Below are positions 6,709 to 29,953 of a stretch of DNA of 33,270 bases, piece by piece. A program made the translations under genes and the position numbers. This DNA comes from Rikenellaceae bacterium (GTDB lineage Bacteria > Bacteroidota > Bacteroidia > Bacteroidales > UBA932): assembly GCA_022771245.1 (NCBI GenBank), contig JALFCH010000045.1:1-33270 (forward strand). The letters are read 5' to 3'. A model generated the notes under the pieces. The model saw only the letters and a list, made by a program, of their open reading frames with translations. It made no database searches and was not told the DNA's origin. How positions within the stretch are numbered: position 1 is the first letter of the stretch; each line of letters starts with the position of its first letter.

Positions 6709-7356
6709 CTATTTGTCCAGATACTTGAGAAGAATCATACGGACAGTATCTGAGATGCGCTTGGCTGTGTCGGAAGTTTCTTCAAGGACCTCGGCTATGT
6801 TCTTGTATTTCATAAGCTCAATCGGGTCGCTTTCATTCTGGAAGATATAGCCCACATACTCTTCGTAAGCCTCGTCCGCCAGGTGCTCGAGTTCGGTAAT
6901 CCGGTCGCACTGGGAACTGATTTTGTCGATATTGTCACAGAAATCGTGCATATATCCCACCATATCCCCGAGGGCATCAGCACTGGACATAATGTAGTTT
7001 GCAAGGTCCTCGATATGGCTGTCGATGCGCTTCGGGAAATACAAGAGTATGGATTTGGCAGCCGAGTTGATTTTGTCCATAAAGTCGTCGGCAGTCATAG
7101 CTATGGTCTGGAGGTCGGAACGGCTCACTGCCATCAATCTGCCTTCGTTCAGTTCTTCATATATTAAGGTAAGGAGGTCGTCCGCCTGCACCTCATAACT
7201 CTTGATCTTGTTCTCACAGTTGAACCACTCGTCCTTGTCGGTGGTCTGCATCATCCTCACAAGCACGGCCGATGCCGCCTTGATATATTCCGCCTGTTTG
7301 AGATATAGCGGCAAAACCTTTATTTTCTTCGCGAACAGTTTTCTGAAAGGGTTCAT
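6709..7356 (-). CDS. DUF47 / PhoU-like phosphate-transport-associated protein
   Basis: MNPFRKLFAKK..., helical protein with NCENKIKSYEVQADDLLTLIYEEL and SRSDLQTIAMTADDFMDKIN...EDLANYIMSSADAL typical of DUF47. ATG at 7356 preferred over the track's TTG at 7383. Confidence 0.85.
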   Translation of the reverse strand: MNPFRKLFAKKIKVLPLYLKQAEYIKAASAVLVRMMQTTDKDEWFNCENKIKSYEVQADDLLTLIYEELNEGRLMAVSRSDLQTIAMTADDFMDKINSAAKSILLYFPKRIDSHIEDLANYIMSSADALGDMVGYMHDFCDNIDKISSQCDRITELEHLADEAYEEYVGYIFQNESDPIELMKYKNIAEVLEETSDTAKRISDTVRMILLKYLDK

Positions 7357-7390
7357 AAAATGGTTGATAAATGAAAAACTCAAAATCGTC

Positions 7391-9177: not shown

Positions 9178-9207
9178 TTGCGCGTGGCAAACAGATATCA
9201 TACCTTG
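9178..9207 (+). promoter_or_regulatory. Candidate promoter for the GH89/SusCD operon
   Basis: TTG (9178-9180), N19, TACCTTGT (9200-9207), an imperfect match to TAnnTTTG. The -33 box lies inside the inverted repeat CCACG (9170-9174) / CGTGG (9182-9186). Confidence 0.35.
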
Positions 9208-9252
9208 TTTGAAACCGGACGCAGATGTACCGGGAGAAACAAGCGATTTACT

Positions 9253-11808: not shown

Positions 11809-12893
11809 AACCGGAAATCTGCATAATGGCACTCGCAGCAGCATTGCTCCTGGGGTGCAGCAAGACTGAAGTGAGGGACAGCATTGAGATTGTCTCCGTT
11901 TCGGAAACATCCTTTAGCAGCGAAGGAGGATTCGGCTCAATCGCCACCTCCACAGGAGGAATTGCGGTGGAAGCAGTTTCCTCCGCTCCCCAGTGGCTCA
12001 TAGTGAGCACAGTCAGGGAAAACGTCCTGTTCACAATCCTTCCGAATGAAAGCCCGGAAGAACGTAAGGGCACCATTTCCATCAAAGCCGGAGAAATCAG
12101 GGGAGCCTCCGTGGAGATATCGCAGCAGGCCTACAGCGGACTACGGCTGTCCTGTTCCAATGTGGACTTCACCGAAGACATCAGGCAGGCAGAAGTGAAA
12201 GTGAAATGTTCCTGCGAATACAGCATCGCTTTTTCAGAGAATCCGGACGGATGCTTCAATTGCGTGAAAACATCCGAAGGACTGGTTTTGAGCAGTTCGA
12301 AGGGACCTGGCAGACACGCCGTTACCGGACGGCTTTACGTCACGCCGGAAGACCCTCTCATTCCTTCCGCAGCAGTCACACTCCGTCTGAGGGAAAAATC
12401 CGTCTATGACTATATGGTGGGCACCTGGACCGCAACGGCAAGCGATGAAGGCCAAATTCAGAAATTCACGTTCAGCCGCAAGAAGGACCAATATTCCTTC
12501 AATGTGGAAATCGACCATTCAAAAACAGCCGGCCTGCCATTCACGGCGGACTGGGTGGACGGCAAAGTGAGAATACTCTCCGGCCAGGAATGCGGCTACA
12601 ATCCTGAGCAGAACAAGTACCTGTCCCTGCATTACAACGGCACGAAAAACGGCAGCGGGTGGTATATACTCCAGACCGCGGGTCTGGTGGCCTGGGATGC
12701 GGAACCTGTTTTTGACGAAAATGCAGGCAGCATAGAACTCACTTTCGGAGACAGCGGCATCAACAGCGAATACAGCCCCAAACTGCTGACATTCTGGCTA
12801 TGTCCGGGCAGATACTTCAACTTCGGCGGAAGCGGAGCCGGACAGGTAATCAGCTACAGTAAACTCACATTGACCAAAGAACTGACTGAGTAA
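11805..12893 (+). CDS. BACON-domain lipoprotein
   Basis: Lipobox LLLGCSKTE. BACON-like FSSEGGFGSIATSTGG...PQWLIVS...ERKGTISIKAGEIRGASVEISQQAY. Start overlaps the GH89 stop (ATGA). Confidence 0.75.
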   Translation: MKPEICIMALAAALLLGCSKTEVRDSIEIVSVSETSFSSEGGFGSIATSTGGIAVEAVSSAPQWLIVSTVRENVLFTILPNESPEERKGTISIKAGEIRGASVEISQQAYSGLRLSCSNVDFTEDIRQAEVKVKCSCEYSIAFSENPDGCFNCVKTSEGLVLSSSKGPGRHAVTGRLYVTPEDPLIPSAAVTLRLREKSVYDYMVGTWTATASDEGQIQKFTFSRKKDQYSFNVEIDHSKTAGLPFTADWVDGKVRILSGQECGYNPEQNKYLSLHYNGTKNGSGWYILQTAGLVAWDAEPVFDENAGSIELTFGDSGINSEYSPKLLTFWLCPGRYFNFGGSGAGQVISYSKLTLTKELTE

Positions 12894-12905: not shown

Positions 12906-15900
12906 ATGATCATGAAAAGGATAATCGCCACAATAATTCTCACCGTATTCTCTGCAACCCTCATCTGGGCGCAGAACATCAAGTCCTCAGGTACGGTGAA
13001 AGATGCCTCGGGGAATCCGCTTCCCGGAGTCGTGGTCGCCGTTAAAGGCGTAAACAATGCCACAGTGACCGACATTGACGGAAACTGGCAGTTGGACAAT
13101 GTTCCGGCAGGTTCACAACTTGAAGCCACCTGCCTGGGATTCAAGGATGTGGTAAAACCGGCAGCGGCAAAAGTGAATTTCACACTGGAGGAAAGTACGG
13201 AAATGCTTTCAGAGGCAGTGGTGACCGGTATGACCACAACCGACAAGAGAATGTTTACAGGAGCCACGGACAAGCTCTCGGCAGTGGATGTGAACATCAG
13301 CGGAATGGGAGAAATAAGCCGTTCCCTCGAAGGCAAATCAGCCGGAGTCTCCGTGCAGAACGTATCCGGCACTTTCGGAACCGCGCCCAAAATCAGGGTC
13401 AGGGGTGCCACTTCGATCTACGGTGATTCCAAGCCGCTGTGGGTGGTGGACGGAGTCATTATGGAAGATGTGGTGGACGTGGATGCCAACTCCCTTTCCT
13501 CAGGTGATGCCACGACCCTTATCAGTTCGGCAATAGCCGGGCTCAATTCCGACGACATCGAATCTTTCCAGATTCTCAAAGACGGTTCCGCAACCTCCAT
13601 CTACGGAGCCAGGGCAATGGCCGGAGTCATAGTCGTGACAACCAAGAAAGGCACCCCGGGAATGACCAAGGTCAGCTACAACGGGGAATACAGCATACGC
13701 TTCGTGCCGTCCTATTCCGAATTCAACATTATGAACTCGCAGGAGCAGATGTCCGTCTATGAGGAAATGTACCAGAAGGGCTGGCTCAATTTTTCCCGCA
13801 GCGTCTATGCAGCCAACGGAGGAGTTTACAACAAAATGGCCCAGTTGATGAACACCTACGACCCAGCCACAGGCAAATACATCATCGAGAATACGGAAGC
13901 GGGCAGAATAGCCTACCTCAGGGAAGCCGAGCTGCGCAACACCGACTGGTTCGCCGAACTGTTCCGCCCGAGCATCCAGCACAGCCACTCGGTCAGCGTT
14001 TCCGCAGGTAGCGAAAGAGGCAGTTATTACGCATCCCTGGGCGCTCTCGTGGACCCGGGATGGACCCTGCAGAGCAAGGTGAACCGCTATACTGCCCTGT
14101 TCAACACCACTCAGAAACTCTTCGGGGACTATCTGTCCCTCAACATCATAGCCAATGCATCTTACCGCCGGCAGAGGGCTCCGGGCTCGCTTTCCTCAGA
14201 GGTGAATGCCGTTGAAGGAACAGTGAAGAGGGATTTTGACATCAACCCCTATTCCTACGCTCTGCGCACTTCCCGCACCCTGGACCCGGACGAATTCTAC
14301 ACCAGGAACTACGCACCGTTCAACATCAAGCACGAGCTGGAAAACAACTATATGGACATTTCGGTGATGGACACCAAGTTTCAGGCGGAACTCAAGGCCA
14401 AGCCTTGCAAGGGTCTGGAACTTTCCGCCCTCGGATCCGTCCGTTACCAGATTTCCGAAACTCAGCACAATATCACCGACAACTCCAATCAGGCAGAAGC
14501 CTACAGAGCTGCGTACACGAGGATGATAAGGGACTACAACCCTCTGCTCTACAAAAATCCCGACACTCCGAATGCAGACAAATACACCATTCTGCCGGAG
14601 GGCGGTATCCTCAAGAAAAACAGCTACTCCGCACTCAGCGCCGATTTCAGGGCCTCAGCCACCTACAACGGGACCTTTGCGGACAAACACATACTCAACG
14701 CCTACGCTGCTATGGAAATCAACTCCCTGGACAGAAGCACTTCCTATTTCCAGGGCTGGGGTTTGCAGTATGAAGCCGGTGAAACACCATTCTACATTCT
14801 CGACCTTTTCAAGAAGCAGCTCGAAGAAAACACCTTCTATTATAATGTAGGCAATACTCACGAGCGCAACGTGGCATTCGCAGCCACCGCTTCCTATTCC
14901 TACGACTACCGTTACACCATCAACGGCACCTTCAGATACGAGGGTTCCAACCGCTTGGGCCGTGCCCGCAGTTCAAGATGGCTGCCCACCTGGAACGTGG
15001 CGGCGAGATGGTCTGCAGACCAGGAAGACTTCTTCAAGGCAATCAAACCGGCCTTCTCAACCTTCAATGTGAGACTCTCCTACTCCCTCACGGCAGACCG
15101 TGGACCGTCCTGGGTGAACAACTCCACTGCCATTTTCTACCCGACCACCCAATGGAGAGGCGATTCCGACATTATGGAGCCCGGTCTGGGCCTGTCCTCC
15201 ATCGAGAACTCAGAACTCACCTACGAAAAGAAACACGAACTGAACATAGGTGCTGACCTCGGGTTCATAGACGACCGTATCCAACTGTCCTTCGATGCCT
15301 ACAAGAGGAACAATTTCGACCTCATAGGCAATGTGGTCACCCAGGGTCTGGGCGGCTATTCGAACAAGATGGGCAATGTGGCCTCGATGAAATCCTCCGG
15401 AGTGGAACTTTCCCTGGCGACCAGGAACATAGTCACGAAGGACTTCTCCTGGACCACCAGTTTCATCTTCTCCCATATGAAGAACATCGTGACCGAGCTC
15501 AAGACCTACCAGACCATGATCAGCTATCTCACCGGCAACGGATATTCAATGGAAGGTATGCCGAGAGGAGCCATGTTCTCCCTCCAGTTCATGGGTCTGG
15601 ATGAAATGGGCATTCCGACCTTCCTGGGCAAGGACGGACAGATCACCTCGACGGACATACAGTTCCAGGAGATGAACGACTTCAGCAATCTCAAGTATGA
15701 AGGGCCGATTGACCCGACGATGACCGGCAGCTTCGGCAATATCTTCAAGTGGAAGGGATTCACCCTCAATGTTTTCTTCACCTACTCTTTCGGCAACGTG
15801 GTGCGTCTGGACCCGGTTTTCTCAAGCAGCTACACCGACCTAACCGCAATGCCGCGCGAGTTTATGGACCGCTATGTGGTCCCGGGTGACGAAAACAGGA

Positions 15901-16229
15901 CCAACGTGCCCGTGATTGCAAGTTCGAGACAGAACAGCAGGATAAGCAATCTCTCAATAGCCTACAATGCCTACAACTACTCCGATCAGAGAGTGGCGAA
16001 GGGAGATTTCATAAGGCTCAAGGAAATTTCCCTCGGCTATGAGCTTCCTAAGAAGGCCGTGGAAAAGCTGAGGCTCAAAGGGCTGTCATTCAAACTTCAG
16101 GGCACCAACCTATGTCTGGTCTATGCCGACAAGAAACTGGAAGGGCAGGACCCCGAGTTCCTCAACAGCGGCGGAGTCGCCACTCCTATGCCCAAACAGA
16201 TGACCCTGACCTGCAAAATAGCGTTCTAA
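12906..16229 (+). CDS. SusC/RagA-family TonB-linked outer membrane protein
   Basis: Signal peptide, carboxypeptidase-like regulatory domain (GTVKDASGNPLPGVVVAVKGVNNATVTDIDGNW), plug (KIRVRGATSIYGDSKPLWVVDGVIMEDV...SIYGARAMAGVIVVTTKKG) and a beta-barrel C-terminus. ATG at 12912 is an alternative start. Confidence 0.97.
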   Translation: MIMKRIIATIILTVFSATLIWAQNIKSSGTVKDASGNPLPGVVVAVKGVNNATVTDIDGNWQLDNVPAGSQLEATCLGFKDVVKPAAAKVNFTLEESTEMLSEAVVTGMTTTDKRMFTGATDKLSAVDVNISGMGEISRSLEGKSAGVSVQNVSGTFGTAPKIRVRGATSIYGDSKPLWVVDGVIMEDVVDVDANSLSSGDATTLISSAIAGLNSDDIESFQILKDGSATSIYGARAMAGVIVVTTKKGTPGMTKVSYNGEYSIRFVPSYSEFNIMNSQEQMSVYEEMYQKGWLNFSRSVYAANGGVYNKMAQLMNTYDPATGKYIIENTEAGRIAYLREAELRNTDWFAELFRPSIQHSHSVSVSAGSERGSYYASLGALVDPGWTLQSKVNRYTALFNTTQKLFGDYLSLNIIANASYRRQRAPGSLSSEVNAVEGTVKRDFDINPYSYALRTSRTLDPDEFYTRNYAPFNIKHELENNYMDISVMDTKFQAELKAKPCKGLELSALGSVRYQISETQHNITDNSNQAEAYRAAYTRMIRDYNPLLYKNPDTPNADKYTILPEGGILKKNSYSALSADFRASATYNGTFADKHILNAYAAMEINSLDRSTSYFQGWGLQYEAGETPFYILDLFKKQLEENTFYYNVGNTHERNVAFAATASYSYDYRYTINGTFRYEGSNRLGRARSSRWLPTWNVAARWSADQEDFFKAIKPAFSTFNVRLSYSLTADRGPSWVNNSTAIFYPTTQWRGDSDIMEPGLGLSSIENSELTYEKKHELNIGADLGFIDDRIQLSFDAYKRNNFDLIGNVVTQGLGGYSNKMGNVASMKSSGVELSLATRNIVTKDFSWTTSFIFSHMKNIVTELKTYQTMISYLTGNGYSMEGMPRGAMFSLQFMGLDEMGIPTFLGKDGQITSTDIQFQEMNDFSNLKYEGPIDPTMTGSFGNIFKWKGFTLNVFFTYSFGNVVRLDPVFSSSYTDLTAMPREFMDRYVVPGDENRTNVPVIASSRQNSRISNLSIAYNAYNYSDQRVAKGDFIRLKEISLGYELPKKAVEKLRLKGLSFKLQGTNLCLVYADKKLEGQDPEFLNSGGVATPMPKQMTLTCKIAF

Positions 16230-16244
16230 CAAAAGGATTGGAAT

Positions 16245-17933
16245 ATGAACAAGACTATATATACAGCAATACTTCTCTGCCTTGCGGCCACATCTGTTTC
16301 CTGCGACAAATTCCTGGACCAGCTGCCTGACAACAGGGCCGAAATCGACTCCGTGGAAAAGGTCCGCAAGTTACTTGTCACCGCGTACAGTTCAAGAACT
16401 TACGTAAGGTACTTCGAATATGCTTCGGACAATGTGGACTTTGCCGGAGAAAAGAACCCCAACACCAACCAGCTCCTGGATCAGAATTATGCCTGGGAAG
16501 CTATGACTGTTGCGGAGAACGAGAGCAATGTGAACGTATGGCAGAACTACTACAAGATGATAGCCACTGCCAACGCCGCCCTCGAAGCTATAGAGAAATG
16601 CGGCACGCCTGAGGAAATGTTGCCGTACAAAGGGGAAGCCCTGCTCTGCCGCGCCTATGCACATTTCTGTCTGACAATGATTTACTGTCTGCCATACCAT
16701 CCTCAGCTCGCTTCCACCTATCTTGGGGTACCATATATTGACGCCCCCGAAACCACCCTCAATCCGAAATATGTGAGGGGAACGCTTGAGGAAGATTACA
16801 GGAAAATAGAACAAGACATCGAGGAAGCCCTCCCCCTGATCAATGACGAAGCCTATAATGTTCCCAAATACCATTTCAACAAAAAGGCAGCCTACGCCTT
16901 CGCAACACGTTTCTACTGCTACAGCCTGCAATGGGAAAAAGCCGTAGATGCAGCCGGAGTCGTCCTGGGAAGCAACCCTTCCGAGATGCTGAGAGACTGG
17001 GCTGCCACGGCAAAACTCACCTGGGGATATGAATCCAGGACTATGGATTACATCGACCCTCTGAACAAATTCAACCTTCTGCTCATTCCGCTCTACACCG
17101 CCAACGGCACCATCTTCAATGCCTGGTCCGGTGCCGGTTCCCGTTTCACCCACAACAACAGGGTGGCGAAGAAAGAGACTTTCCGCTGCAAGAGGCCTAT
17201 GGGAGGACCCTACGACACGGGCAAGGACGACTGCTATGCGATTTACCAGCATCCCCCTTTCCTGTGGTACGACAACATCACAAACAAGGTATGGATGCCG
17301 AAATGGCCGAACCAATGGGAAGTGGTCGATGCTGTGGCGGGGACCGGTTACAGCCGTTCCACTTTCGTAGCCTTCACTGCCAATGAGGTCCTGCTCAACC
17401 GGGCAGAAGCCTACATACAGCTGAAGAAGTATGACCTCGCGGCTGCCGACCTTGAGACCTGGAACCAATCCTTCTACAAGGTGGGACAGTACAGTGTACG
17501 CAGCCTCACCCCGGAACTGATTGACGAAGTCTATTCCGACCCGTCCTCAGCCCGTTACATACCTCTATATACAAGAGAGGAGCCTACCAGCCGCAAGGAA
17601 CTCCATCCGCACGGTTTTACGGTGGAGGCGGGCAGACAGGAAAATATGACTCAGTGCCTGCTCTTCTGCCGCCGTCTGGACTTCCTCGGGGAAGGCTTGA
17701 GATGGTGCGACGTGAAAAGATACGGAATTACCGTGGACCGCTTCGATGACACCAACTACGATGATGCCACCACCACAGGCTACAAGGCCGGGGAATCGCT
17801 TCCGTACAATGACCTGCGCAGAGCCTTCCAGATTCCGCAAGAGTCCATCAAGACGGGACTGGAAGCCAATCCGGACGACAACTCCAAGAATCCGGACCAT
17901 CCTTTTGTAAGCTCTTACGACACTCTAAATTAA
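16245..17933 (+). CDS. SusD/RagB-family glycan-binding lipoprotein
   Basis: Lipobox VSCDKFLDQLPDNRAEID, TPR-like helices, LNRAEAYIQLKKYDLAAADLETW and C-terminal RRLDFLGEGLRWCDVKRYGI. Confidence 0.96.
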   Translation: MNKTIYTAILLCLAATSVSCDKFLDQLPDNRAEIDSVEKVRKLLVTAYSSRTYVRYFEYASDNVDFAGEKNPNTNQLLDQNYAWEAMTVAENESNVNVWQNYYKMIATANAALEAIEKCGTPEEMLPYKGEALLCRAYAHFCLTMIYCLPYHPQLASTYLGVPYIDAPETTLNPKYVRGTLEEDYRKIEQDIEEALPLINDEAYNVPKYHFNKKAAYAFATRFYCYSLQWEKAVDAAGVVLGSNPSEMLRDWAATAKLTWGYESRTMDYIDPLNKFNLLLIPLYTANGTIFNAWSGAGSRFTHNNRVAKKETFRCKRPMGGPYDTGKDDCYAIYQHPPFLWYDNITNKVWMPKWPNQWEVVDAVAGTGYSRSTFVAFTANEVLLNRAEAYIQLKKYDLAAADLETWNQSFYKVGQYSVRSLTPELIDEVYSDPSSARYIPLYTREEPTSRKELHPHGFTVEAGRQENMTQCLLFCRRLDFLGEGLRWCDVKRYGITVDRFDDTNYDDATTTGYKAGESLPYNDLRRAFQIPQESIKTGLEANPDDNSKNPDHPFVSSYDTLN

Positions 17934-18850: not shown

Positions 18851-19723
18851 ATGAAAAAGTTCACATACATTCTTATGCTCTGTGTTGCAGCACTCTCCTG
18901 CAGCAAACCGGAGAGAATATTCAGCGAAGGAGCGTCTGAAAGGATTGCGGATGCGGTGGACCTCTACAAATCGGCAATTCTGGCAAGGGGAACCTGGGTA
19001 ATGGAATATTTCCCTGATGACCAGCTGCGCTACGGAGGCTGGGTCTATGTGCTGGATTTCCGGGAGGACAACAGCATCGAGGCCTGGTTTGAGGGCAGCG
19101 GATTCGTGCCTTCCGCCGACCCGGTGACAGTCTCGGAATATGCCGTGGAATTCAGTACCGGACCTATGCTCAAGTTCTGCACCAACAATGACTATCTGCA
19201 CTATTTCTCCTTCCCGGGAGGCCCCAACGGAGGAGGCTACCAGGGCTATAGGGGAGACTACGAATTCACCATTATGTCCCTCAATGAAACAATGGATGAA
19301 ATCATTCTCAGGGGCATCAAGACAGAAAACAGAATACGCCTGAGCCCACTTTCGGGGAAATGGACTCCCGAGGAATATATCAATGCGGTAAGGGACAGCG
19401 AGTTATCCGTACGCCGCACCAGTTTTGACCTTACGCTGGACGGCGTGAAAATCGGAGTTTTGTCCAGGGCCTGCACCCCGGTTATGGATGATTTTTCAAG
19501 TTTCAGCAGAAGCAAAATCTGGACTCTCGAATGTGGGGAGCAAAAACAGGACATCTGCACAATAACCCTTCCCGACGGCATAATGAAAGCCTATGAGCCT
19601 TTCACCGTAAAGACTCCCCAGGACGGGGAATTGAGCCTTCAGACCTTCCGCTGGGTACTCGGAGAGAGCTCCGGCAAGGATGAGTTCGTCTGCATCGAAA
19701 ACGGAAGAATTGAATTGAAATAA
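18851..19723 (+). CDS. DUF4302-family lipoprotein
   Basis: Lipobox LSCSKPER. Pattern ADAVDLYKSAILARGTWVMEYFPDDQLRYGGWVYVLDF typical of DUF4302. Confidence 0.8.
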   Translation: MKKFTYILMLCVAALSCSKPERIFSEGASERIADAVDLYKSAILARGTWVMEYFPDDQLRYGGWVYVLDFREDNSIEAWFEGSGFVPSADPVTVSEYAVEFSTGPMLKFCTNNDYLHYFSFPGGPNGGGYQGYRGDYEFTIMSLNETMDEIILRGIKTENRIRLSPLSGKWTPEEYINAVRDSELSVRRTSFDLTLDGVKIGVLSRACTPVMDDFSSFSRSKIWTLECGEQKQDICTITLPDGIMKAYEPFTVKTPQDGELSLQTFRWVLGESSGKDEFVCIENGRIELK

Positions 19724-19734
19724 AACGCAAGTCT

Positions 19735-22563
19735 ATGAATAGATATATCCTTACCCCGCTCCTCTGCCTTATTCTTGCAGCAGGATGCACGCAGGAAATA
19801 AAGCCCGAGGAAGTCGAACCGGGCATTCTCACTGTACGGGCGAGTGCAACTGTCAGAATGTCCGGCATCAGTTTTCCCTGGTTTGCCAGCAGCGACAGGA
19901 TAGGAGTATATGCCAGGAAATCAGACAGCGGGGAGATTACTGTCCGCAACGCCTGTCTGGCTGCATATTCCTCAACAACCACTTCCCTGTTCAAGCCGCT
20001 GTCAGATGCTTCGAGAATAGAACTGTCTGATGGCGACAAGTTGGACCTGGGCCTCTACTACCCCTTCCGCACGAGTTGTGACAAGCCGGAAAGTCTGCCT
20101 CTTTCCATACCTTCCGAACAGACGCTCACACCGGGCCGGGAACCGTCATTCAAGCAAGACAACATCTTCACCTGCACGATTCCGGCTGTCGGGGCTATGG
20201 AGTCTCCTCTTGAGACCGAACTCCTGCCCGCCGCAGCCTACCTCAGAATCAGCATAAGCAGTTCCTCCCCGGCCTATTTCAACTCTTTCCGTCTCGAAGG
20301 CAGCCGGGGCAGTGTCCTCGCATTCACTGAAGGCAGTTTCGACCTTTTCACCGGGGCCATAGACTCCGGAGATGAAACCTACGATACCATAGGACTCAGC
20401 TCCGAGACTTCTGTCACCGTCACATCCTCGCCCCTGGAGATATATGTAAAGGTCAATCCGGGATTCAGCGGGGACAAGCTGACCTTCTTCGGCACAATGG
20501 GCAAAGCCGAACTCACTCTCGCGGAATTTGAAGTACCCGAAGGCGGATTCAAAAGCGGAGAATGCAGTCTGTATGACGTCAAAATAACCGGAGAATTCGA
20601 AATGCCCGGGGATTTGAGCAAAAATGGTACAGCCAACTGCTACATAGTGACCGAAGCCGCATCAGAATATTCCTTCGATGCCACGGTCAAGGGCAACGGC
20701 AGCAACGGCATCTCCTGGACTTTCGACGGCACCCCGGTAAGCAAGAACTTCCAAGCTGCCATCTCACCGGCTTCGGCTGCACTCCTTTGGTACAGCAATC
20801 CGGAGGAAAACGAAAGTCTCTCCCCTGTCGTAGCCTCAAGCGTAAGTTTCGACCCGTCAAGCGGTCGCATAAGTTTCCGCACGCCGGAATCATTCGTGGA
20901 GGGCAATGCCGTAATAGCAGCCTTTGATGCCTCGGGCAACATTCTTTGGAGCTGGAACATCTGGGCAGTGGAAGGCTGGGACAGTCAGGCGAGCGCGAAG
21001 ACCGCCGGCAGATATGTCTTTATGGACAGGAACCTCGGAGCCGTATCGGGAGCTGATGCTGATGTAAGCGATGTCAAGGCTGCTGCAAAAGCCATAGGCA
21101 ATTACTATCAATGGGGACGCAAGGACCCTTTCCCTGCAGCCAGAACCTACACGGACGGCTACAAGGTGGAAGAAGGCTGGGGACTGTATGCCTGGACTCC
21201 GCTGGATGCTTACAAAGTCTCCGGGAACAAGATATTCTCCACAGACAGAACAGCAAACGGCAGGATGCTCGGCAGCACTCTCGGAAGCGGCTACACCCTT
21301 GAAGACGCAGTGGAAGAAAGCGCAAGATATCCGCACAAATGGATGTTCTCAGGCAACAGCGATACGGTATTCCCTCAGTACAGCTGGTTCACAGCCGAGG
21401 GACAGTTTGAAGCCAGAACACTGCTTGAACGTATGGAATGGAGGTATCTCTGGGGCAGTACGGACAATGTCAGCAATGTCAAAACCGTCTATGACCCTTG
21501 CCCTCCGGGATGGAAAGTGCCTACAGCCGACGCCTTTGTGCCTGTGCTCAACAATGTGAAGCCATCCGACGGAGGTCACGGAATCATTTCTTCGGGCTAT
21601 GGACTGTATTTCCCATATGGAGGTCAGAGAAAGGCTGGTTTCGGAGGCTCAGTCATAGTGAGTGCCGAAGACATTATGGTCGCAAGCGCCAGTGTGGCAG
21701 GTTCCCTCTACCCTATCAGGGCCAGCCGCAGCAGTTCATCGGCCGGCAGTTACGGCTCTTGCATCACCAGCTCCAACAGCTACGCCGGAGCCGGTCTCCA
21801 GGTCAGGTGCGTTAAGGAAGATGTGGCATCCGTCGCAGCTCCTCACGGCAGGCAGACAGGCCACAGGGCCGCCCTTATGGGAGACTCAATCACCAGAACC
21901 TGGCGTGACAGGGGCCGCAAGGAATTCTTCACAGAGAACGACTACCTCAACAAAGGCATTGACGGCACAACCACCACCAATATGCTCAACCGCTTCTACA
22001 CCGACATTGTCTCCGATGACCCTCAGCTCGTCGTAATCACGGCAGGTACGAATGACCTTGCCCAAAACGATGCCTGGGGCAGTGCCTGGAACCAGTGCAA
22101 TTATGTCAGCCGCGAGGAACTTCTGGCAAACGTGGCCCTGATGGCCGCCATAGCCGAAGATCTCTGCGGGGAGGTTATAATCGGCTCAATCTGCCCGAGC
22201 AGGGATATGTGGTGGAAACCGGATGAGTGGAAAGCCGTTTACAACGGAGACTGGATAGCGGAGAAGATAGTTGAGACGAACAAACTTCTGAAAGCCTGGG
22301 CGGAGACTCACGGCTATGCCTGGGCCGATTACCACTCTGCCCTGAAAGACGATGAGGACAACCTCAAGGACGAATACTGTTGGGTGTTCGGAACCAATCC
22401 TGACGGCAGTCTGAACCTGGACAGAGTGCACCCTAACGCAGATGCGTTCCTCATTATGGAAAGCATACTCAAACCGCTGATTGACGGCAAACTGTTCGAC
22501 CCGGACGAAGGCAAACCCGGCTCCGGAAACATTGATGACCTGGACAAGGAGGAATGGAAATGA
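19735..22563 (+). CDS. Fimbrillin/FISUMP-type lipoprotein fused to a C-terminal SGNH/GDSL hydrolase
   Basis: Lipobox AAGCTQE. Mfa-like N-terminus. Middle domain ANCYIV...KGNG...NILWSWNIWAVEGWD. FISUMP-like VFMDRNLGA...GNYYQWGRKDPFP...YDPCPPGWKVPTADAF...LQVRCVKE. Then SGNH blocks GDSIT, NKGIDGTTT, ITAGTND and LDRVHPN. Confidence 0.9.
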   Translation: MNRYILTPLLCLILAAGCTQEIKPEEVEPGILTVRASATVRMSGISFPWFASSDRIGVYARKSDSGEITVRNACLAAYSSTTTSLFKPLSDASRIELSDGDKLDLGLYYPFRTSCDKPESLPLSIPSEQTLTPGREPSFKQDNIFTCTIPAVGAMESPLETELLPAAAYLRISISSSSPAYFNSFRLEGSRGSVLAFTEGSFDLFTGAIDSGDETYDTIGLSSETSVTVTSSPLEIYVKVNPGFSGDKLTFFGTMGKAELTLAEFEVPEGGFKSGECSLYDVKITGEFEMPGDLSKNGTANCYIVTEAASEYSFDATVKGNGSNGISWTFDGTPVSKNFQAAISPASAALLWYSNPEENESLSPVVASSVSFDPSSGRISFRTPESFVEGNAVIAAFDASGNILWSWNIWAVEGWDSQASAKTAGRYVFMDRNLGAVSGADADVSDVKAAAKAIGNYYQWGRKDPFPAARTYTDGYKVEEGWGLYAWTPLDAYKVSGNKIFSTDRTANGRMLGSTLGSGYTLEDAVEESARYPHKWMFSGNSDTVFPQYSWFTAEGQFEARTLLERMEWRYLWGSTDNVSNVKTVYDPCPPGWKVPTADAFVPVLNNVKPSDGGHGIISSGYGLYFPYGGQRKAGFGGSVIVSAEDIMVASASVAGSLYPIRASRSSSSAGSYGSCITSSNSYAGAGLQVRCVKEDVASVAAPHGRQTGHRAALMGDSITRTWRDRGRKEFFTENDYLNKGIDGTTTTNMLNRFYTDIVSDDPQLVVITAGTNDLAQNDAWGSAWNQCNYVSREELLANVALMAAIAEDLCGEVIIGSICPSRDMWWKPDEWKAVYNGDWIAEKIVETNKLLKAWAETHGYAWADYHSALKDDEDNLKDEYCWVFGTNPDGSLNLDRVHPNADAFLIMESILKPLIDGKLFDPDEGKPGSGNIDDLDKEEWK
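21853..22530 (+). other. SGNH/GDSL hydrolase domain within CDS 19735-22563
   Basis: Ser block GDSIT (~21880-21894), Gly block KGIDG, Asn block GTND (22045-22056), Asp-x-x-His block DRVHPN (22420-22437). Confidence 0.88.
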
Positions 22564-24836
22564 ATACTTTGAAAAAATACATACTGATTGGCGGAGCGAT
22601 AATGCTCGCAGCCTGCTCCAAGGAAATTGCCGTTGAAAATCCGGATGATGCCGTGACTTTTTCAGCATCCCCATCTTCCACGAAAACGGCTTACTCGGAT
22701 GAAGGGGCTAAGGTTTCGGTGTCCTGGGTGGAGGGTGACTGCATAGGAATATGGTCGGGCTCAGGGACATCCACGCTCAAATCCAACAGCCAGTACAGGG
22801 CCGTCTCCTCGGGGGCTTCTTCAGGATTCGAATTCGTATCGAGAAGCGAAAGAATCCGCTGGGAAGAGGAAAGGCAGTCCTTCTATGCCATTTATCCATA
22901 TGATGCGGAGGCAGGGAGCGACCCTCGTATGGCAAGCCTTGAAATACCTTCCCTGCAGAGGCAGACATCCGCAGACGACATCTCAAACCTGAGGAATCAG
23001 GATATTATGTGGGCCTGCGCCCCGGATTTGACCAGAGGCGAAAACGATGAGGTCAAGCTCGATTTCCACCACGCCCTGACAATCCTGGACCTCGAGCTCA
23101 GCACCGACAAGAGGATGATAGTGGACAGAATCGTCTTTGAATGCATTTCATCCGAGACTGCTCCCCTGTCTTTTGAAAATGGCAGCATAGACCTTTCCAC
23201 CGGAACAATCACAGCCGGTTCAAAGACCTCCGCATCCATCACTCTCGAGTGCGGATTTGCAGTATCCTGGCCGGCGACGACCCACTTCTACATAGCATTC
23301 AACCCTTCTCTCGCATCCGAGACGATGAGGATTTCTGCAGTGGTGGGAGGTCAGAAAAAGACACTTGCAGAAAGGACACTCCCCGCTTCAGGGGCAGGTG
23401 CCGGCAAGGTGCTTAATGTGAAGGTGGATTACGAAGTGCCGGAATCGGATGCAATCCAGATCAAGGACCTGAGCGAAGTATCCACAGCCAACACCTATCT
23501 GGTCACATCTCCCGGTGAATATTACAGATTCAAGGCCAACGTCAAGGGCAACGGGCAGATTCCCCAGGCCTTGCAGAGCGTAGTGGAAGGCACTGACATA
23601 ACCCCGGGATCCGTACTGGTGCTGTGGTATAACTGCCTTCAGACCAGCAACAAATGGGTGGACCTCTGCCCTATTGTGATGGGTTCTCTGGTCCTTCAGA
23701 ACGGATATGTGTATTTCGACACCCCTTCAGAGTTCATAAACGGAAACGTAGTGATTGCAGCATTTGCAGAAGAGGGCCTCGACTACGACAGCATAAGCGT
23801 GGATGCCAAAGGGAATATCGACAATGCCACTTTGCTCTGGAGCTGGAACATCTGGGCTGTCGAAGGCCTGGACCTCGAAGCGGAAGCCCTGAACCTCGAA
23901 TACACAGCCGCCAATGGACAGAAAACCCCATTCACCGTGATGAACCGCAACCTCGGAGCCATATTCAGCGGAGACCAACTCCCCGCTTCCGACACCAAGG
24001 GCTATTATGCAGCTGCCGCACTGGGTAATCTCTATCAATGGGGCAGAAAGGACCCGATTCCGCATATTGCCGATTACGAGAATTACTGGCCCATAGGAAA
24101 CGTGAACAAACTGCTCACCACTCCGACCTATACTCCGATAGTGGCTCTGCAGAAAACACCTTCCACATCAGAAACGCTTGACCGGCAGATGTTTGTGCAG
24201 AAGGGCGGAAAGATTGCCACCGAAGGCAACCCGGCCGTGGATGAATGTCTGTTCAGCTTCGACAAGAATACCGTAAGTTTCTCTCAGGCCATAAACGAGG
24301 CGGCAAAATATCCATATAAATATTTCAAATGTGCCGGGAGCCACACCTACGACAAGCACTGGTTCCCGAACAATCCTGCGACCGACCCTTGGAAATATCT
24401 CTGGGGAGACTGTGACACAGACGACGGAACGGCACTCGAGAAGACCCTCTTCGACCCTTGCCCTCCGGGATGGAAACTCTGGCAGGAGGAAACCATAAAC
24501 GCCTTCGTGCAGAAAGGGGCCGAGTCGGCATCCATTGCGCCTGGAGGACACGGACTTATGGTTGCAGGTTCCTATTTCGGCTACAACGCGGGAGGCAGGA
24601 ACGAAGATATGAGCGAGAGTTACAGCGAGCCGGTGGTCATCTGCGGATACGCCTGCCCTATAGGTCTGATTTCGGGCACCGGTGCAGACAGATACAATCA
24701 TCAGATTCTCCGGTACACCCTCTGGAAATCTCCGACAAGTTCTGCAAATTCAAGCATTTCGGTGACGGTCTCCAATCCGAACGGAGGGGATGCCAAGAAG
24801 GCTGGAAGTTATTCAGTTCGCTGCATAAAAGAATAA
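22560..24836 (+). CDS. Fimbrillin-family / FISUMP-type lipoprotein (paralog 2)
   Basis: Lipobox LAACSKEI, Mfa-like N-terminus (VKLDFHHALTILDLEL), NATLLWSWNIWAVEGLD, VMNRNLGAIF, LGNLYQWGRKDPIP, FDPCPPGWKLWQ, SYSVRCIKE end. ATGA overlap with the upstream stop; ATG 22554 also possible. Confidence 0.85.
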   Translation: MNTLKKYILIGGAIMLAACSKEIAVENPDDAVTFSASPSSTKTAYSDEGAKVSVSWVEGDCIGIWSGSGTSTLKSNSQYRAVSSGASSGFEFVSRSERIRWEEERQSFYAIYPYDAEAGSDPRMASLEIPSLQRQTSADDISNLRNQDIMWACAPDLTRGENDEVKLDFHHALTILDLELSTDKRMIVDRIVFECISSETAPLSFENGSIDLSTGTITAGSKTSASITLECGFAVSWPATTHFYIAFNPSLASETMRISAVVGGQKKTLAERTLPASGAGAGKVLNVKVDYEVPESDAIQIKDLSEVSTANTYLVTSPGEYYRFKANVKGNGQIPQALQSVVEGTDITPGSVLVLWYNCLQTSNKWVDLCPIVMGSLVLQNGYVYFDTPSEFINGNVVIAAFAEEGLDYDSISVDAKGNIDNATLLWSWNIWAVEGLDLEAEALNLEYTAANGQKTPFTVMNRNLGAIFSGDQLPASDTKGYYAAAALGNLYQWGRKDPIPHIADYENYWPIGNVNKLLTTPTYTPIVALQKTPSTSETLDRQMFVQKGGKIATEGNPAVDECLFSFDKNTVSFSQAINEAAKYPYKYFKCAGSHTYDKHWFPNNPATDPWKYLWGDCDTDDGTALEKTLFDPCPPGWKLWQEETINAFVQKGAESASIAPGGHGLMVAGSYFGYNAGGRNEDMSESYSEPVVICGYACPIGLISGTGADRYNHQILRYTLWKSPTSSANSSISVTVSNPNGGDAKKAGSYSVRCIKE

Positions 24837-24857: not shown

Positions 24858-25013
24858 ATGAAAGATGTATTGAAACGGAAGATTTACGAATCTCCACAAA
24901 TGTGGGCCGACTCCGCAGTCCTCGAGGAGGGATTTGCGTTGAGCACCCAGGACAACTCCATTGACAATATGGGAAAATGGACCGGATGGGAAACGGTGGA
25001 TGAAAACAATTAA
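24858..25013 (+). CDS. Small ORF, 51 aa, hypothetical protein (not in the supplied ORF track)
   Basis: ATG...TAA encodes MKDVLKRKIYESPQMWADSAVLEEGFALSTQDNSIDNMGKWTGWETVDENN. Sits 21 bp after paralog 2 and 13 bp before paralog 3. Confidence 0.65.
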   Translation: MKDVLKRKIYESPQMWADSAVLEEGFALSTQDNSIDNMGKWTGWETVDENN

Positions 25014-25026
25014 GGAGGACACAACT

Positions 25027-27342
25027 ATGAAAAAATCATTACTTTATCTTGCGTCTGTCCTCGCCATTGCGGGATGCGCAAAGGAGACACTGGTCGGGAA
25101 TGAAGAAGAGACCGGAATGGGTTTCCAGATTATTGCCAGCGTTGACAAAACCAAGACACTGCATAGTGAGGATGACCAGGAAGGGATCAAGACCAGCTGG
25201 GTTGCCAAAGATGCAATTGGTGTCTATGCTTACAAGCAGAGTAAAGAAAATCATTACTGGCTGAATTACAAGGGTGAGGCAGAATCAGATGCAGAGGTTG
25301 CATCCTTCAAAATCAGCGGAGGTTATATTCTTGCCGGAGCTTGGGTTGACTATAAGATTTACACATATTATCCTTTCAACAGCAGCATAGCGACCGTGCA
25401 GCATATGAACTCTACAGACCCTGTTGGAGATTCTGATCCTTCAGCCTTTCCTATCACTGTTCCGGCATCACAGTCTCAAACCTCTGCCGGGGATTTCAGC
25501 CATCTTGCGAGCACTGACTTCCTCTATGGATATGCAGTGAACCAATGGGATTACAACGACAAGACCGGAGAATCCAAGAAGATTCACGTGAATTTCCACC
25601 ACGCCCTCTCTGTACTCGAAGTATCACTCACTGCCGTCCATAGCGGAGTCAATGTAAGTTCTGTCACGGCGACCATAGAGGATGAGAACGAGCTTTTCTC
25701 GCTGTCCGAAGCCAGCATCAATCTTGAGACAGGCGCAATTGTTCCATTTGCAGGTACTCCTTCCATAAGTGTAAACCTTCTGGAAAGCGCCCAGCTGACT
25801 TCTGAACCGAGCAAAGTCTATATGCAGATAACCCCGGGACACGCTGGAAAAGTGCTCAGCATCTATGCATCCGTAAACGGACAAAACCAGAAAATCGGTG
25901 CTGTCAAGGTACCGGCATCCGGAATCCCGGCAGGTGTCAAGGCTGCTCTTTCGTTCAATGTAGAGTACTCTGCTCCGACCAATTTCACGGATTTGTCTGC
26001 AAACGGAACTGCAAACTGCTATCTTGTAAATGCCCCGGGAGCTTACAAATTCAAGGCTACTGTCAAAGGAAATGGGGTAATACCTTCGGCTTTATCCTCA
26101 GCTGTGGGAGGTTCCTCTGACATAGCTCCAAAATCAGCCCTCATCCTTTGGTACAACACTATCCAGACCAGCAGTTCCTGGAAGGATGCCTCTCCGATAG
26201 TGATTTCCTCCGTTGAACTCACAGAGGACGGCTACATCCAGTTCTACACACCGAGCGAACTTGTCCCGGGCAATGTGGTCATTGCCGCCTTCGCGGAAGA
26301 GGGCCTGAACTATGAGAATATAGAGGCGGACGAGAATAAACTCCTCACCAATGCCACAATGCTTTGGAGTTGGAATATATGGGTTGCTGATGGTTATGTT
26401 CCTGACAGCAGAACACTGTCTGTCGGCGGCTTCACTGTAATGGACAGAAACCTTGGTGCATTGATTGACGGAAGCACATCCACCAACCCTTACGAACTCG
26501 TTGCAGCCATAGGTAACCATTACCAGTGGGGAAGAAAGGATCCGTTCCCGACTTTCGCGGATTACGCCAGCAACAACTCATTCCCTTGCCAGTATAGCAA
26601 ACTGCTCACTACCCCTACCTTCACTCCTATTGTTGCACTGCAGATTAATTCCCAGGGAGCAAACAATAATGTGAATAAGCAGATGTTCGGCTATGAACTC
26701 AATTCTGACGGTTCAGTAAATACTGGAACCTGTGTCAATTACGCTGGTAAGTCGTCATTTGCCACCTCCACCGACAAATTGGATCACTATCTGGAGTTTA
26801 CAACAAAACACCCATACAAGTTCATAGGAGGAGTAACAGCTGTCGGAAATAACAATTTGGAATTCAGCAACTACAACTGGTATTACAAATCTGACAGTGA
26901 CCAGACCTATAAGGCACTTTGGGGAGACGGAGAAAGCTACTCCGACGCCCGCAACATAGAGAAGTCCCTCTATGATCCTTGTCCTGCGGGTTGGAGAGTG
27001 ATGACCTATGAAGCAGCTGTTGCCGTGCAGGAGTCCTTAACGGATGCCAAAGTAGCAAGCAATCTTCACGGTGTCATATCCCAAGGTATATACTACCCTC
27101 ATACCGGACGCGGACGTGAATACGGCAGCTTCAGGATAGAATATATTGGTGCTACCGGTTATACTACAGATACCTTTTTCTGGCACTCCACTGCTGACAA
27201 AGGTTATTCTGGTTATTGTTATCCAGGAAGGTTAGCCATCGCTTCCCCTGCCAATTATTCAGCAGGAGACGCAGCTACGGCATCTATTGCAATAGACAGG
27301 TGCGGTGCACAGGGACTTAACGTACGCTGCATAAAAGAATAA
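25027..27342 (+). CDS. Fimbrillin-family / FISUMP-type lipoprotein (paralog 3)
   Basis: aaggagga RBS-like 25012-25019, ATG 25027, lipobox IAGCAKET, VNFHHALSVLEVSL, NATMLWSWNIWVADGY, VMDRNLGALI, IGNHYQWGRKDPFP, YDPCPAGWRVM, LNVRCIKE end. Confidence 0.87.
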   Translation: MKKSLLYLASVLAIAGCAKETLVGNEEETGMGFQIIASVDKTKTLHSEDDQEGIKTSWVAKDAIGVYAYKQSKENHYWLNYKGEAESDAEVASFKISGGYILAGAWVDYKIYTYYPFNSSIATVQHMNSTDPVGDSDPSAFPITVPASQSQTSAGDFSHLASTDFLYGYAVNQWDYNDKTGESKKIHVNFHHALSVLEVSLTAVHSGVNVSSVTATIEDENELFSLSEASINLETGAIVPFAGTPSISVNLLESAQLTSEPSKVYMQITPGHAGKVLSIYASVNGQNQKIGAVKVPASGIPAGVKAALSFNVEYSAPTNFTDLSANGTANCYLVNAPGAYKFKATVKGNGVIPSALSSAVGGSSDIAPKSALILWYNTIQTSSSWKDASPIVISSVELTEDGYIQFYTPSELVPGNVVIAAFAEEGLNYENIEADENKLLTNATMLWSWNIWVADGYVPDSRTLSVGGFTVMDRNLGALIDGSTSTNPYELVAAIGNHYQWGRKDPFPTFADYASNNSFPCQYSKLLTTPTFTPIVALQINSQGANNNVNKQMFGYELNSDGSVNTGTCVNYAGKSSFATSTDKLDHYLEFTTKHPYKFIGGVTAVGNNNLEFSNYNWYYKSDSDQTYKALWGDGESYSDARNIEKSLYDPCPAGWRVMTYEAAVAVQESLTDAKVASNLHGVISQGIYYPHTGRGREYGSFRIEYIGATGYTTDTFFWHSTADKGYSGYCYPGRLAIASPANYSAGDAATASIAIDRCGAQGLNVRCIKE

Positions 27343-27563: not shown

Positions 27564-27571
27564 TAGTTTTG
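27564..27571 (+). promoter_or_regulatory. Candidate -7 element for the fimbrial lipoprotein operon
   Basis: TAGTTTTG matches TAnnTTTG, 21 nt upstream of ATG 27593. No convincing -33 box. Confidence 0.4.
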
Positions 27572-27592
27572 CCGCTGAGAAATTTTGACGCG

Positions 27593-28681
27593 ATGAAACT
27601 TTTTTCGGACATATACTTTTCCTTTTTCAATCCGGGCCGGCCCATTTTTACAGGCCGCTTCAATCGGGGCTTCTGTCCTTTGCTGCCGTTGATTTTCTAT
27701 GTTACTTGCTTGCCGGCCCTTTTCTTCTCCTGTGCAAAGTCCGATCCGGCATCCACCGACTGCCTGGCCTCAAGAGACATACATATCAGGCTGAATGCCG
27801 TCAGGTCCGGGCAGAGTATGCAGGAGGCGGGAATCAGCCACATACAAGTCCTGGTCTATAATGACGACTCCAGGAAACTGCTGGATTCGCGAATGTTCTT
27901 TGAAGCTGAAGAGGGCTTTGAAAACCTTGTCTGCGCCACTTCCTGCACCGGAAACAAAGAAATTGTAATCCTGTGCAATTTACCCCGGACTTTCCCCGAA
28001 TGGGCAGATGTACTCAGTATCCATTCCCTGGAGAGACTTGTGACCGGGCTTGAAAAGGAAAGCCTGTCTTTTCCCGTGATGTCCGGTTCCGCAAAGGTCA
28101 GTGCCGGAGGGGAAGTGGACATTATGGTAAAGCCTCTTGCCGCCAGAATAAGGCTCAGGGAAATATGCAGCGATTTCAGAGGTACTGCGTACCCCTTTGA
28201 GGAAATAACGGATGTGAAAGTGTATCTGACAAATGTCAATGCCGACAGTCCGCTGTTTCCCGACCGGTCTTATGGACGGAGATTCATCAATAACGGCTCG
28301 CTCAATCCCCTTGATATCAACGGGTTCAACGACAAAAGCCTGATATTCCGCGAACTCGGGCCAAAGGTCGGAATGGACCCGGTTGTGACAGATATGGAAT
28401 TCCTGTGCTATGCCAATCCGGTCACGGAAGAGGCCTTCGGATGTCCTCTCACCAGACTGGTCATAGAGGGAAAGATTCTCGGAAAGACCTGGTACTGGCC
28501 CATTGACCTTTGCAAGCTGCAGGAAAATGGCATACAGGCCGGAGAGGACTACGAAATCAGTCTCACGATTTTGAGGACCGGAACTGACGACCCGGACACT
28601 CCTGTCCGACTCGTGGGAGGAGAACTTGAAATGGAAATTGTACAATGGAAAGAGAAAGAAAACCAGCCGATATATTTCTGA
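27593..28681 (+). CDS. FimB/Mfa2-like fimbrial subunit / anchor lipoprotein
   Basis: Lipobox LFFSCAKSD, IQVLVYNDDSRKLLDSRMFF, NKEIVILCNLP, MSGSAKVSAGGEVDIMVKPLAARIRLREI typical of minor fimbrium subunits. ATG 27593 preferred over the track's TTG 27569. Confidence 0.65.
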   Translation: MKLFSDIYFSFFNPGRPIFTGRFNRGFCPLLPLIFYVTCLPALFFSCAKSDPASTDCLASRDIHIRLNAVRSGQSMQEAGISHIQVLVYNDDSRKLLDSRMFFEAEEGFENLVCATSCTGNKEIVILCNLPRTFPEWADVLSIHSLERLVTGLEKESLSFPVMSGSAKVSAGGEVDIMVKPLAARIRLREICSDFRGTAYPFEEITDVKVYLTNVNADSPLFPDRSYGRRFINNGSLNPLDINGFNDKSLIFRELGPKVGMDPVVTDMEFLCYANPVTEEAFGCPLTRLVIEGKILGKTWYWPIDLCKLQENGIQAGEDYEISLTILRTGTDDPDTPVRLVGGELEMEIVQWKEKENQPIYF

Positions 28682-29949
28682 AAAGAACGAACGTCGGAAA
28701 GAATTTTTGGGTTCATTTCATTTTGTGTTTATTGAATGTCTGCGGATGCACGGCTGTCGGGACTGATACCCGTGCTGCCGTTGACATTGTGCTTTCCCCC
28801 TCCGGGATAGCCGTCAAATCTGTTTCGGCTGAAGACAACGGAATCATAGATGCCAACATCTTCATCTTTTCGGACACAGGTTTTCTTGAAAGATCCGTCT
28901 ATGTGAAAGGCGACAGATATGGCACCACTCTCGTGAAAGACAGGCGTTACGATATCTATGTGTGCGCCAATTTCGGACGGCCAATCTCCGTCAAGACCCG
29001 GGAAGACCTTGAAGCCATACGTTTCCATCTCGCGCATCCGGAGGATTTTTCCACCGGGACACCTATGAGCGGATGTGCGAAAAACATTCTGCCGTCTGAG
29101 GAAATCAAGATACCATTGATAAGGCTCTGCTCGGAAATTATCCTGTCCTTTGACCGCAGTCTGCTCGACGAAGACGTAAAGATGACCGTTCAATCGTTGG
29201 AAATCGGCAATTGTCCCAGGTACTGCAAGGCCTTCGGGACCTCCAGGGTGGAAGAAGCCGACGGATGCTTTCCAGTGGGGTTCACGAGAGATTATCTGGA
29301 ATGTGAGCCACTGAACCTTTGCGACGAGAGGGGCCGCAGCGGGCAAGTGAGCCTGATTATGCTGGAAAACCGGCAGGGACTCTTCCCGGGCAATCCGGAT
29401 TCGGACGCAGGGAAGATTCTGCCGGAAAACCATCCCGGTCGGGAAATCTTCTCGTATGTAGAAATAGGTATAGAATACGAATCCTCCTACAGCAGTTCTT
29501 CATCGGGAGTTCTGAAATACCGTTTCTATATCGGAGACAGCTTCTCTGATGCCAATGTAGAAAGGAACTGCCGTTACCACATTACAGTCACCCCTCGGGG
29601 AAGCGGAATAAGCGAGGACAGCTGGAGGGTGGACAAAACATCCCTGATTACCCGAACAACGTTCTCGATGGAGCCCGAAGGCTATTTGGAAGTGGAGATT
29701 GGGGATGAAATACACATAAGGTGCACCTGGTCTCCGGAATGGGCTCCGTTTTACGGGGGAGACGAGGAACTGGAAGAAGACAGGGAAAGGGGCATCTACG
29801 AATATGTAAGGGATGAGGACGGTAAAGGAGTCAGGCTTACCATCACCGGTTATGGGACAGGAATGGTATATATGCGTGCCGGAGACCCGGTGAACCAGTC
29901 GGGACTGCTCTACCTGCACGTCAAGGAAAACGCGAACAAAGAGGAATAG
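28645..29949 (+). CDS. DUF4906-like fimbrial lipoprotein
   Basis: Lipoprotein-like NVCGCTAV, IIDANIFIFSDTGFLE, YDIYVCANFGRP, MSGCAKNILPSEEIKIPLIRLCSEIILSFD, RNCRYHITVTPRGSGISEDSWRVD. Overlaps the upstream CDS by 37 bp. Confidence 0.6.
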   Translation: MERERKPADIFLKRTNVGKNFWVHFILCLLNVCGCTAVGTDTRAAVDIVLSPSGIAVKSVSAEDNGIIDANIFIFSDTGFLERSVYVKGDRYGTTLVKDRRYDIYVCANFGRPISVKTREDLEAIRFHLAHPEDFSTGTPMSGCAKNILPSEEIKIPLIRLCSEIILSFDRSLLDEDVKMTVQSLEIGNCPRYCKAFGTSRVEEADGCFPVGFTRDYLECEPLNLCDERGRSGQVSLIMLENRQGLFPGNPDSDAGKILPENHPGREIFSYVEIGIEYESSYSSSSSGVLKYRFYIGDSFSDANVERNCRYHITVTPRGSGISEDSWRVDKTSLITRTTFSMEPEGYLEVEIGDEIHIRCTWSPEWAPFYGGDEELEEDRERGIYEYVRDEDGKGVRLTITGYGTGMVYMRAGDPVNQSGLLYLHVKENANKEE

Positions 29950-29953
29950 TATT

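Follow-up and report, generated by a model that had tools for sequence, protein, structure and literature searches.

The SGNH (GDSL) hydrolases BDI_0976 (3p94), BACUNI_03406 (4iyj), BT0569 (4hf7) and BF3764 (4ppy) are single-domain chains of about 200 residues; no label of these nearest solved relatives is more specific than putative or GDSL-like, which gives no guide to the substrate. Members of the fimbrillin-like/type V pilin superfamily (Mfa_like_1; 3t2l BF1858, 3ufi and 4k4k) combine a characteristic N-terminal fold with a lipobox, and their tip pilins carry extra C-terminal domains. As a rule, an adhesin and a glycan esterase are two distinct proteins.

We analysed a 33,270-nucleotide stretch of DNA from a Rikenellaceae bacterium (the window), in which one gene, F1 (positions 19735–22563), combines these elements. 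F1 resembles the four solved hydrolases in fold, in the four SGNH blocks and in sequence (about 30% identity over the domain), but here the domain makes up the C-terminal portion of a longer, adhesin-like lipoprotein. F1 shares the N-terminal fold and the lipobox with the fimbrillin-like/type V pilin superfamily and, like their tip pilins, has an additional C-terminal part. In F1, however, this part consists of a large FISUMP-like module and a putative enzyme. Fib_succ_major (PF09603, FISUMP) gives weak profile matches in the F1 family that cover the DPCPxGWK...RC end of the module; unlike Fib_succ_major proteins, F1 lies below the curated cut-off, and its module is followed by SGNH and a tail. 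We found no paper on a fimbrillin/FISUMP–SGNH fusion in the literature searched, outside which most subscription journals lay.

Domain structure of F1

F1 (P0001) encodes 942 residues; it lies on the forward (+) strand, as do the genes from GH89 to F3 described below, and was delineated from its reading frame, which has no internal stop, and from its relatives. It begins with a lipoprotein signal peptide (19735–19788) with lipobox LAAGC, whose cysteine, C18, is nearly invariant in the alignment of relatives. A fimbrillin-like domain (residues ~30–290; 19822–20604) and an Ig-like part marked by TANCYIV together with the FISUMP-like module (residues 293–695; 20611–21819) follow. The module ends in RCVKE, and a 16-residue linker connects its LQVRCVKE end to the SGNH hydrolase domain (residues ~712–920; 21868–22494). 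The protein closes with an acidic tail, GSGNIDDLDKEEWK (22495–22560), which is modelled at low confidence. Taken together, F1 is a predicted surface lipoprotein that joins a pilus-subunit-like part, a putative adhesin part and a putative, apparently working ester-cutting enzyme.

The AlphaFold2 model of F1 was built from 20 related sequences. Its N-terminal third adopts a two-domain fimbrillin fold, with matches to 3t2l (Foldseek E 2.9e-15, TM-score by target 0.63), 3ufi and 4k4k, and pLDDT in the fimbrillin-like domain is mostly 80–90. The Mfa_like_1 profile does not match P0001 itself at its curated cut-off; it matches 16 of 20 family members at E ≤ 0.1. The name fimbrillin is thus supported by predicted fold and relatives, not by a direct Pfam match. 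PF09603 gives no hmmscan match to P0001 even at E 10, and the comparison yields 9.8 bits over 20 positions (curated cut-off, 33.9). The profile matches five of 20 family members (best E 0.002), and a paralog in the same genome (on C13) matches P0001 at 1.1e-16 and PF09603 at 0.0017, the latter below the PF09603 cut-off. By sequence, the name FISUMP is weakly supported, through relatives. The Mfa-like/FISUMP designation of the first-pass annotation therefore holds for fimbrillin, by fold and family; F1 has no direct Pfam match to either, and the FISUMP half stays weak. Against PDB folds, the FISUMP-like module returned nothing significant (best E 4e-3). Its residues C589 and C692 are invariant in the family and could possibly form a disulphide. 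A diversity-generating retroelement target, considered because of a literature link to FISUMP and the variable C-termini, was rejected, since the organism's own genome (G000, 89% complete) has no RVT_1 match.

The SGNH hydrolase is the sole part of F1 that Pfam recognises (Lipase_GDSL_2, 1.2e-13, residues 715–903; the related Lipase_GDSL also matches). Among solved structures, phmmer finds the Bacteroidales GDSL hydrolases 3p94 (1.4e-22), 4iyj, 4hf7 and 4ppy, with all SGNH blocks paired in the alignments. The C terminus of the model has the flavodoxin-like alpha/beta/alpha fold of this superfamily (Foldseek against 3p94: E 6e-15, TM-score by target 0.79). The blocks occur in order: the predicted catalytic Ser718 in GDSI (block I; codon 21886–21888), G741 and G744 in KGIDG (block II; 21955–21966), Asn773 in GTND (block III; codon 22051–22053) and Asp896-x-x-His899 in DRVH (block V; 22420–22431). 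S718, G741, G744, N773, D896 and H899 are invariant across eight aligned full-length proteins, and the blocks are kept in all 17 copies compared. The first-pass annotation had reported all four blocks and called for a structure prediction of 19735–22563; both the predicted fold and the aligned active-site residues proved intact.

Between close pairs, dN/dS of the SGNH part is 0.06–0.23, indicating purifying selection. The FISUMP-like part gives similar values (0.06–0.19), and those of the fimbrillin part (0.13–0.34) are mostly above the SGNH values. From residues and selection, we infer that the SGNH domain is catalytically competent. In one pair of fusions (L072 and L074), dS over residues 1–308, the fimbrillin part, is 0.55, against 0.14 for the FISUMP and 0.10 for the SGNH part. 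This four- to fivefold contrast suggests an exchange of the N-terminal domain.

Operon setting and proposed function

F1 lies in a tightly packed gene set of one direction, in agreement with the GH89/SusCD operon originally described. The order is a GH89 alpha-N-acetylglucosaminidase (9178–11808, an open reading frame from TTG with a probable ATG start at 9253), a BACON-domain lipoprotein (11805–12893), a SusC/RagA-like TonB-dependent transporter (12906–16229), a SusD-like lipoprotein (16245–17933), a zinc metallohydrolase lipoprotein (Peptidase_Mx1, TIGR04549; 17939–18820), a DUF4302 lipoprotein (18851–19723), F1 and its paralogs F2 and F3. From GH89 through F2, gaps are at most about 30 nucleotides or are replaced by small overlaps. 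F1 is thus linked to the SusC/SusD pair of a polysaccharide utilisation locus of the SusCD–Mx1–DUF4302 type.

This set, or parts of it, adjoins the fusion in the window, G404, G492, G550, G703, G728, G758, G1026 and L042, with the fusion's genes on the opposite strand in G404, G758 and L042. The SusC–SusD–Mx1–DUF4302 operon, rather than GH89, is the commonest and steadier partner of the fusion. Other genomes usually add two further genes, one for a PorV-like protein and one for an S8 subtilase that bears a Por secretion tail, assigned by Pfam on the G492 copies only and by similar sequence in the remaining genomes; at L072:9456–12824 and equivalent positions, these two genes are inserted within the operon. 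L039 has a different context, made up of DUF5017 proteins, a second kind of SusCD pair and, upstream of the cassette, a SASA-type esterase; the esterase speaks for the function proposed below, the differing context against it. The loci L038 and L040 do not extend far enough to show a neighbourhood. In loci of the G492 type, genes for a Gfo/Idh/MocA oxidoreductase and a 3-keto-disaccharide hydrolase domain protein follow the fusion and its paralogs (L073:10672–14836).

We propose, with a probability of about 60%, that F1 is a surface-tethered carbohydrate O-deacylase in which an adhesin-like scaffold displays the SGNH ester hydrolase. Its lipid would provide the anchor in the outer membrane, the fimbrillin domain may serve as a spacer or assembly module, and the FISUMP-like module may dock on or bind the target. 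The scaffold would thereby hold the SGNH domain at the cell surface, where it could free a carbohydrate or glycoprotein of O-acyl groups, most likely O-acetyl. Uptake of the deacylated material would follow through the neighbouring SusC/SusD, and the metallohydrolase would take part in its use, as would GH89 in some lineages and S8/PorV in others. The SGNH-less paralogs would supply binding or display without the enzyme.

Carbohydrate ester hydrolysis is strengthened by relatives in the same genus, where GH97, LamG (Laminin_G_3), beta-helix or BD-FAE is the fusion partner of similar SGNH domains. Two of these (L098 and L099, from G011 and G027) are GH97 glycosidases with a C-terminal SGNH domain; like F1, they carry it on a carbohydrate-related protein, but the partner is a glycoside hydrolase in place of an adhesin-like scaffold. 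Another relative (L103, from G013) is a lipoprotein with a lectin-like middle and a C-terminal SGNH domain. It has LamG where F1 has the FISUMP-like module, and its N terminus resembles fimbrillins by eye, with no Pfam fimbrillin match. The O-acyl esterase activity on carbohydrate inferred at first pass is thus plausible and gains from these fusions; the presence of Mx1 and S8 nearby would fit just as well with a substrate that is a peptide or protein.

One more specific reading is that the SGNH domain removes O-acetyl esters from host glycans (mucin or sialoglycan) and so exposes alpha-GlcNAc-capped glycans to the GH89 encoded next to it. The GH89 gene of the window operon recurs as 64%-identical orthologs at the same locus in G404 and G758, there next to a hybrid two-component regulator, and the fold search also picks up two sialate O-acetylesterases, 6xpg and 7pzg. 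There is also a precedent, in that a gut Bacteroidetes sialate O-acetylesterase enables sialidase foraging (PMC5512079). The sialate esterases, however, match at 18–20% identity, well behind generic GDSL hydrolases. Moreover, the lineages with GH89 orthologs beside the locus are two, window/G1026 and G404/G758, whereas four genomes with the fusion (G492, G703, G728 and G767; two of them hold it twice) have no GH89 match and in G550 GH89 is on a different contig. The link to GH89 is therefore real in the two lineages but dispensable, and the idea that the enzyme prepares substrate for GH89 is not borne out. In addition, the characterised GH89 of Bacteroides thetaiotaomicron hydrolyses heparosan oligosaccharides (PMC8225759), so on that account GH89 is not a sign of mucin. 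We consider the host-glycan reading unlikely.

The SGNH domain might instead deacylate plant polysaccharide, for example fragments of xylan or pectin that carry acetyl or feruloyl groups, while the FISUMP-like module keeps the cell attached to plant particles. The fusions of genus relatives to GH97 and BD-FAE point this way, as do the acetyl xylan esterases Axe2 and PbeAcXE among the fold matches and the name FISUMP itself, which derives from Fibrobacter, a cellulolytic genus. The window locus, however, has no plant-polysaccharide glycoside hydrolase, and GH89 and metallohydrolase neighbours are ill-suited to xylan, which makes this reading improbable as well.

The cassette and its history

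F2 (22554–24836), which overlaps F1 by 10 nucleotides, and F3 (24961–27342; probable ATG start at 25027) are fimbrillin/FISUMP-like paralogs without SGNH. They end exactly in SYSVRCIKE and LNVRCIKE, whereas F1 reaches LQVRCVKE and continues. These ends and the domain matches uphold the earlier view that SGNH is appended to a complete fimbrillin-like and FISUMP-like lipoprotein. All loci examined have at least one SGNH-less paralog after the fusion, most such paralogs being about 730–800 residues long, and three genomes have two fusion copies in one cluster. This conserved cassette, headed by the fusion with SGNH-less paralogs after it, is new. Repeats around it amount to coding similarity between paralogs, and nothing else was found.

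In a tree of 48 FISUMP-like modules (a quick tree with SH-aLRT support only), SGNH-bearing modules fall into one group with support of 100, which holds five nested SGNH-less paralogs. The two changes on this tree fit one gain of SGNH and one later loss. The single-gain claim rests on the FISUMP-module tree; neither of two SGNH trees that included stand-alone SGNHs was used, one giving two changes at weak support and the other, with several outgroup rows incomplete, not rejecting a single clade (p-AU 0.456). Four of the five nested paralogs end exactly at RCVKE. The fifth (L076:8780–11458) has a PEPEPEPE linker and then another C-terminal extension, without a Pfam match, at the position that SGNH occupies elsewhere.

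Some SGNH-less paralogs in relatives have tails that resemble the acidic tail of the fusion (e.g., GGQLDNFDKKDW compared with GNIDDLDKEEWK), and SGNH thus lies between the adhesin-like module and the shared tail. A pattern for this tail matches 22 of 213 open reading frames in the loci, all FISUMP-type; since the pattern was fitted to the family, the count is descriptive. The tail (window 22495–22560; L075:2219–4516) is conserved and usually ends in or near W. A mobile C-terminal slot in this family, filled by SGNH, nothing or another domain (e.g., L076:8780) ahead of the tail, could yield adhesins able to modify the very surface to which they attach, perhaps from a pilus tip, although we offer this only tentatively and think it unlikely.

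Two observations concern a pair of nearly identical genomes, those of the window and L037 (98% over 13.4 kb). In place of the third gene of the cassette (window 24961–27342), L037 has a 41.5%-identical allele (L037:13227–15572), with the first and last stretches in common, as if the gene had been swapped by recombination. Downstream of the cassette, L037:15663–17264 has a DUF47 (PhoU_div) gene, 91% identical to window 6709–7383, beside a Kinase-PolyVal gene; this may reflect either a local rearrangement or a second copy.

The window itself has three pilus-like lipoprotein genes downstream of the cassette (27569–32941), with weak FimD-tip and DUF4906 matches. Together with the predicted fimbrillin fold at the N terminus, they would accord with F1 being a type V pilus tip or minor pilin whose SGNH domain forms an enzymatic tip. 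At distant loci, however, the conserved cassette does not include such genes, and within each cassette several large paralogs look alike, with none that stands out as a stalk pilin. A role at the pilus tip is accordingly more doubtful than either substrate-specific reading.

Distribution of the fusion

A scan of 84,980 species, one genome each, found seven loci that each match nearly the whole F1 protein. One is from an independently assembled, 98%-identical genome with an identical junction (L037/L080); the other six are 36–42% identical to F1 and keep domain order and junction. Full-length relatives thus turned up in the architecture search suggested at first pass. A junction-spanning profile finds the architecture in eight of 400 genomes of the genus (a ninth, G611, was left out because its match is limited to the SGNH part), in seven of 399 of the family, all from one genus, and in two of 393 of the order. 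The fusion is therefore conserved but rare. It also occurs in the Alistipes-labelled records L039, L040 and L042; the label is that of the record alone, and we do not claim a second genus.

A sequencing or assembly error or a frameshift fusing two genes near 21840, which the short linker and the equivalent end points of both paralogs might suggest, is refuted by the recurrence of the junction in an independent assembly and, across many genomes, in relatives at 36–42% identity, and by purifying selection on the SGNH part, so that its probability is negligible.

If the proposed function is correct, a gut bacterium would dock on its substrate and remove the chemical protection of that substrate with one molecule, beside SusC/SusD. 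The fusion, conserved yet rare, would then offer a concrete and testable case.
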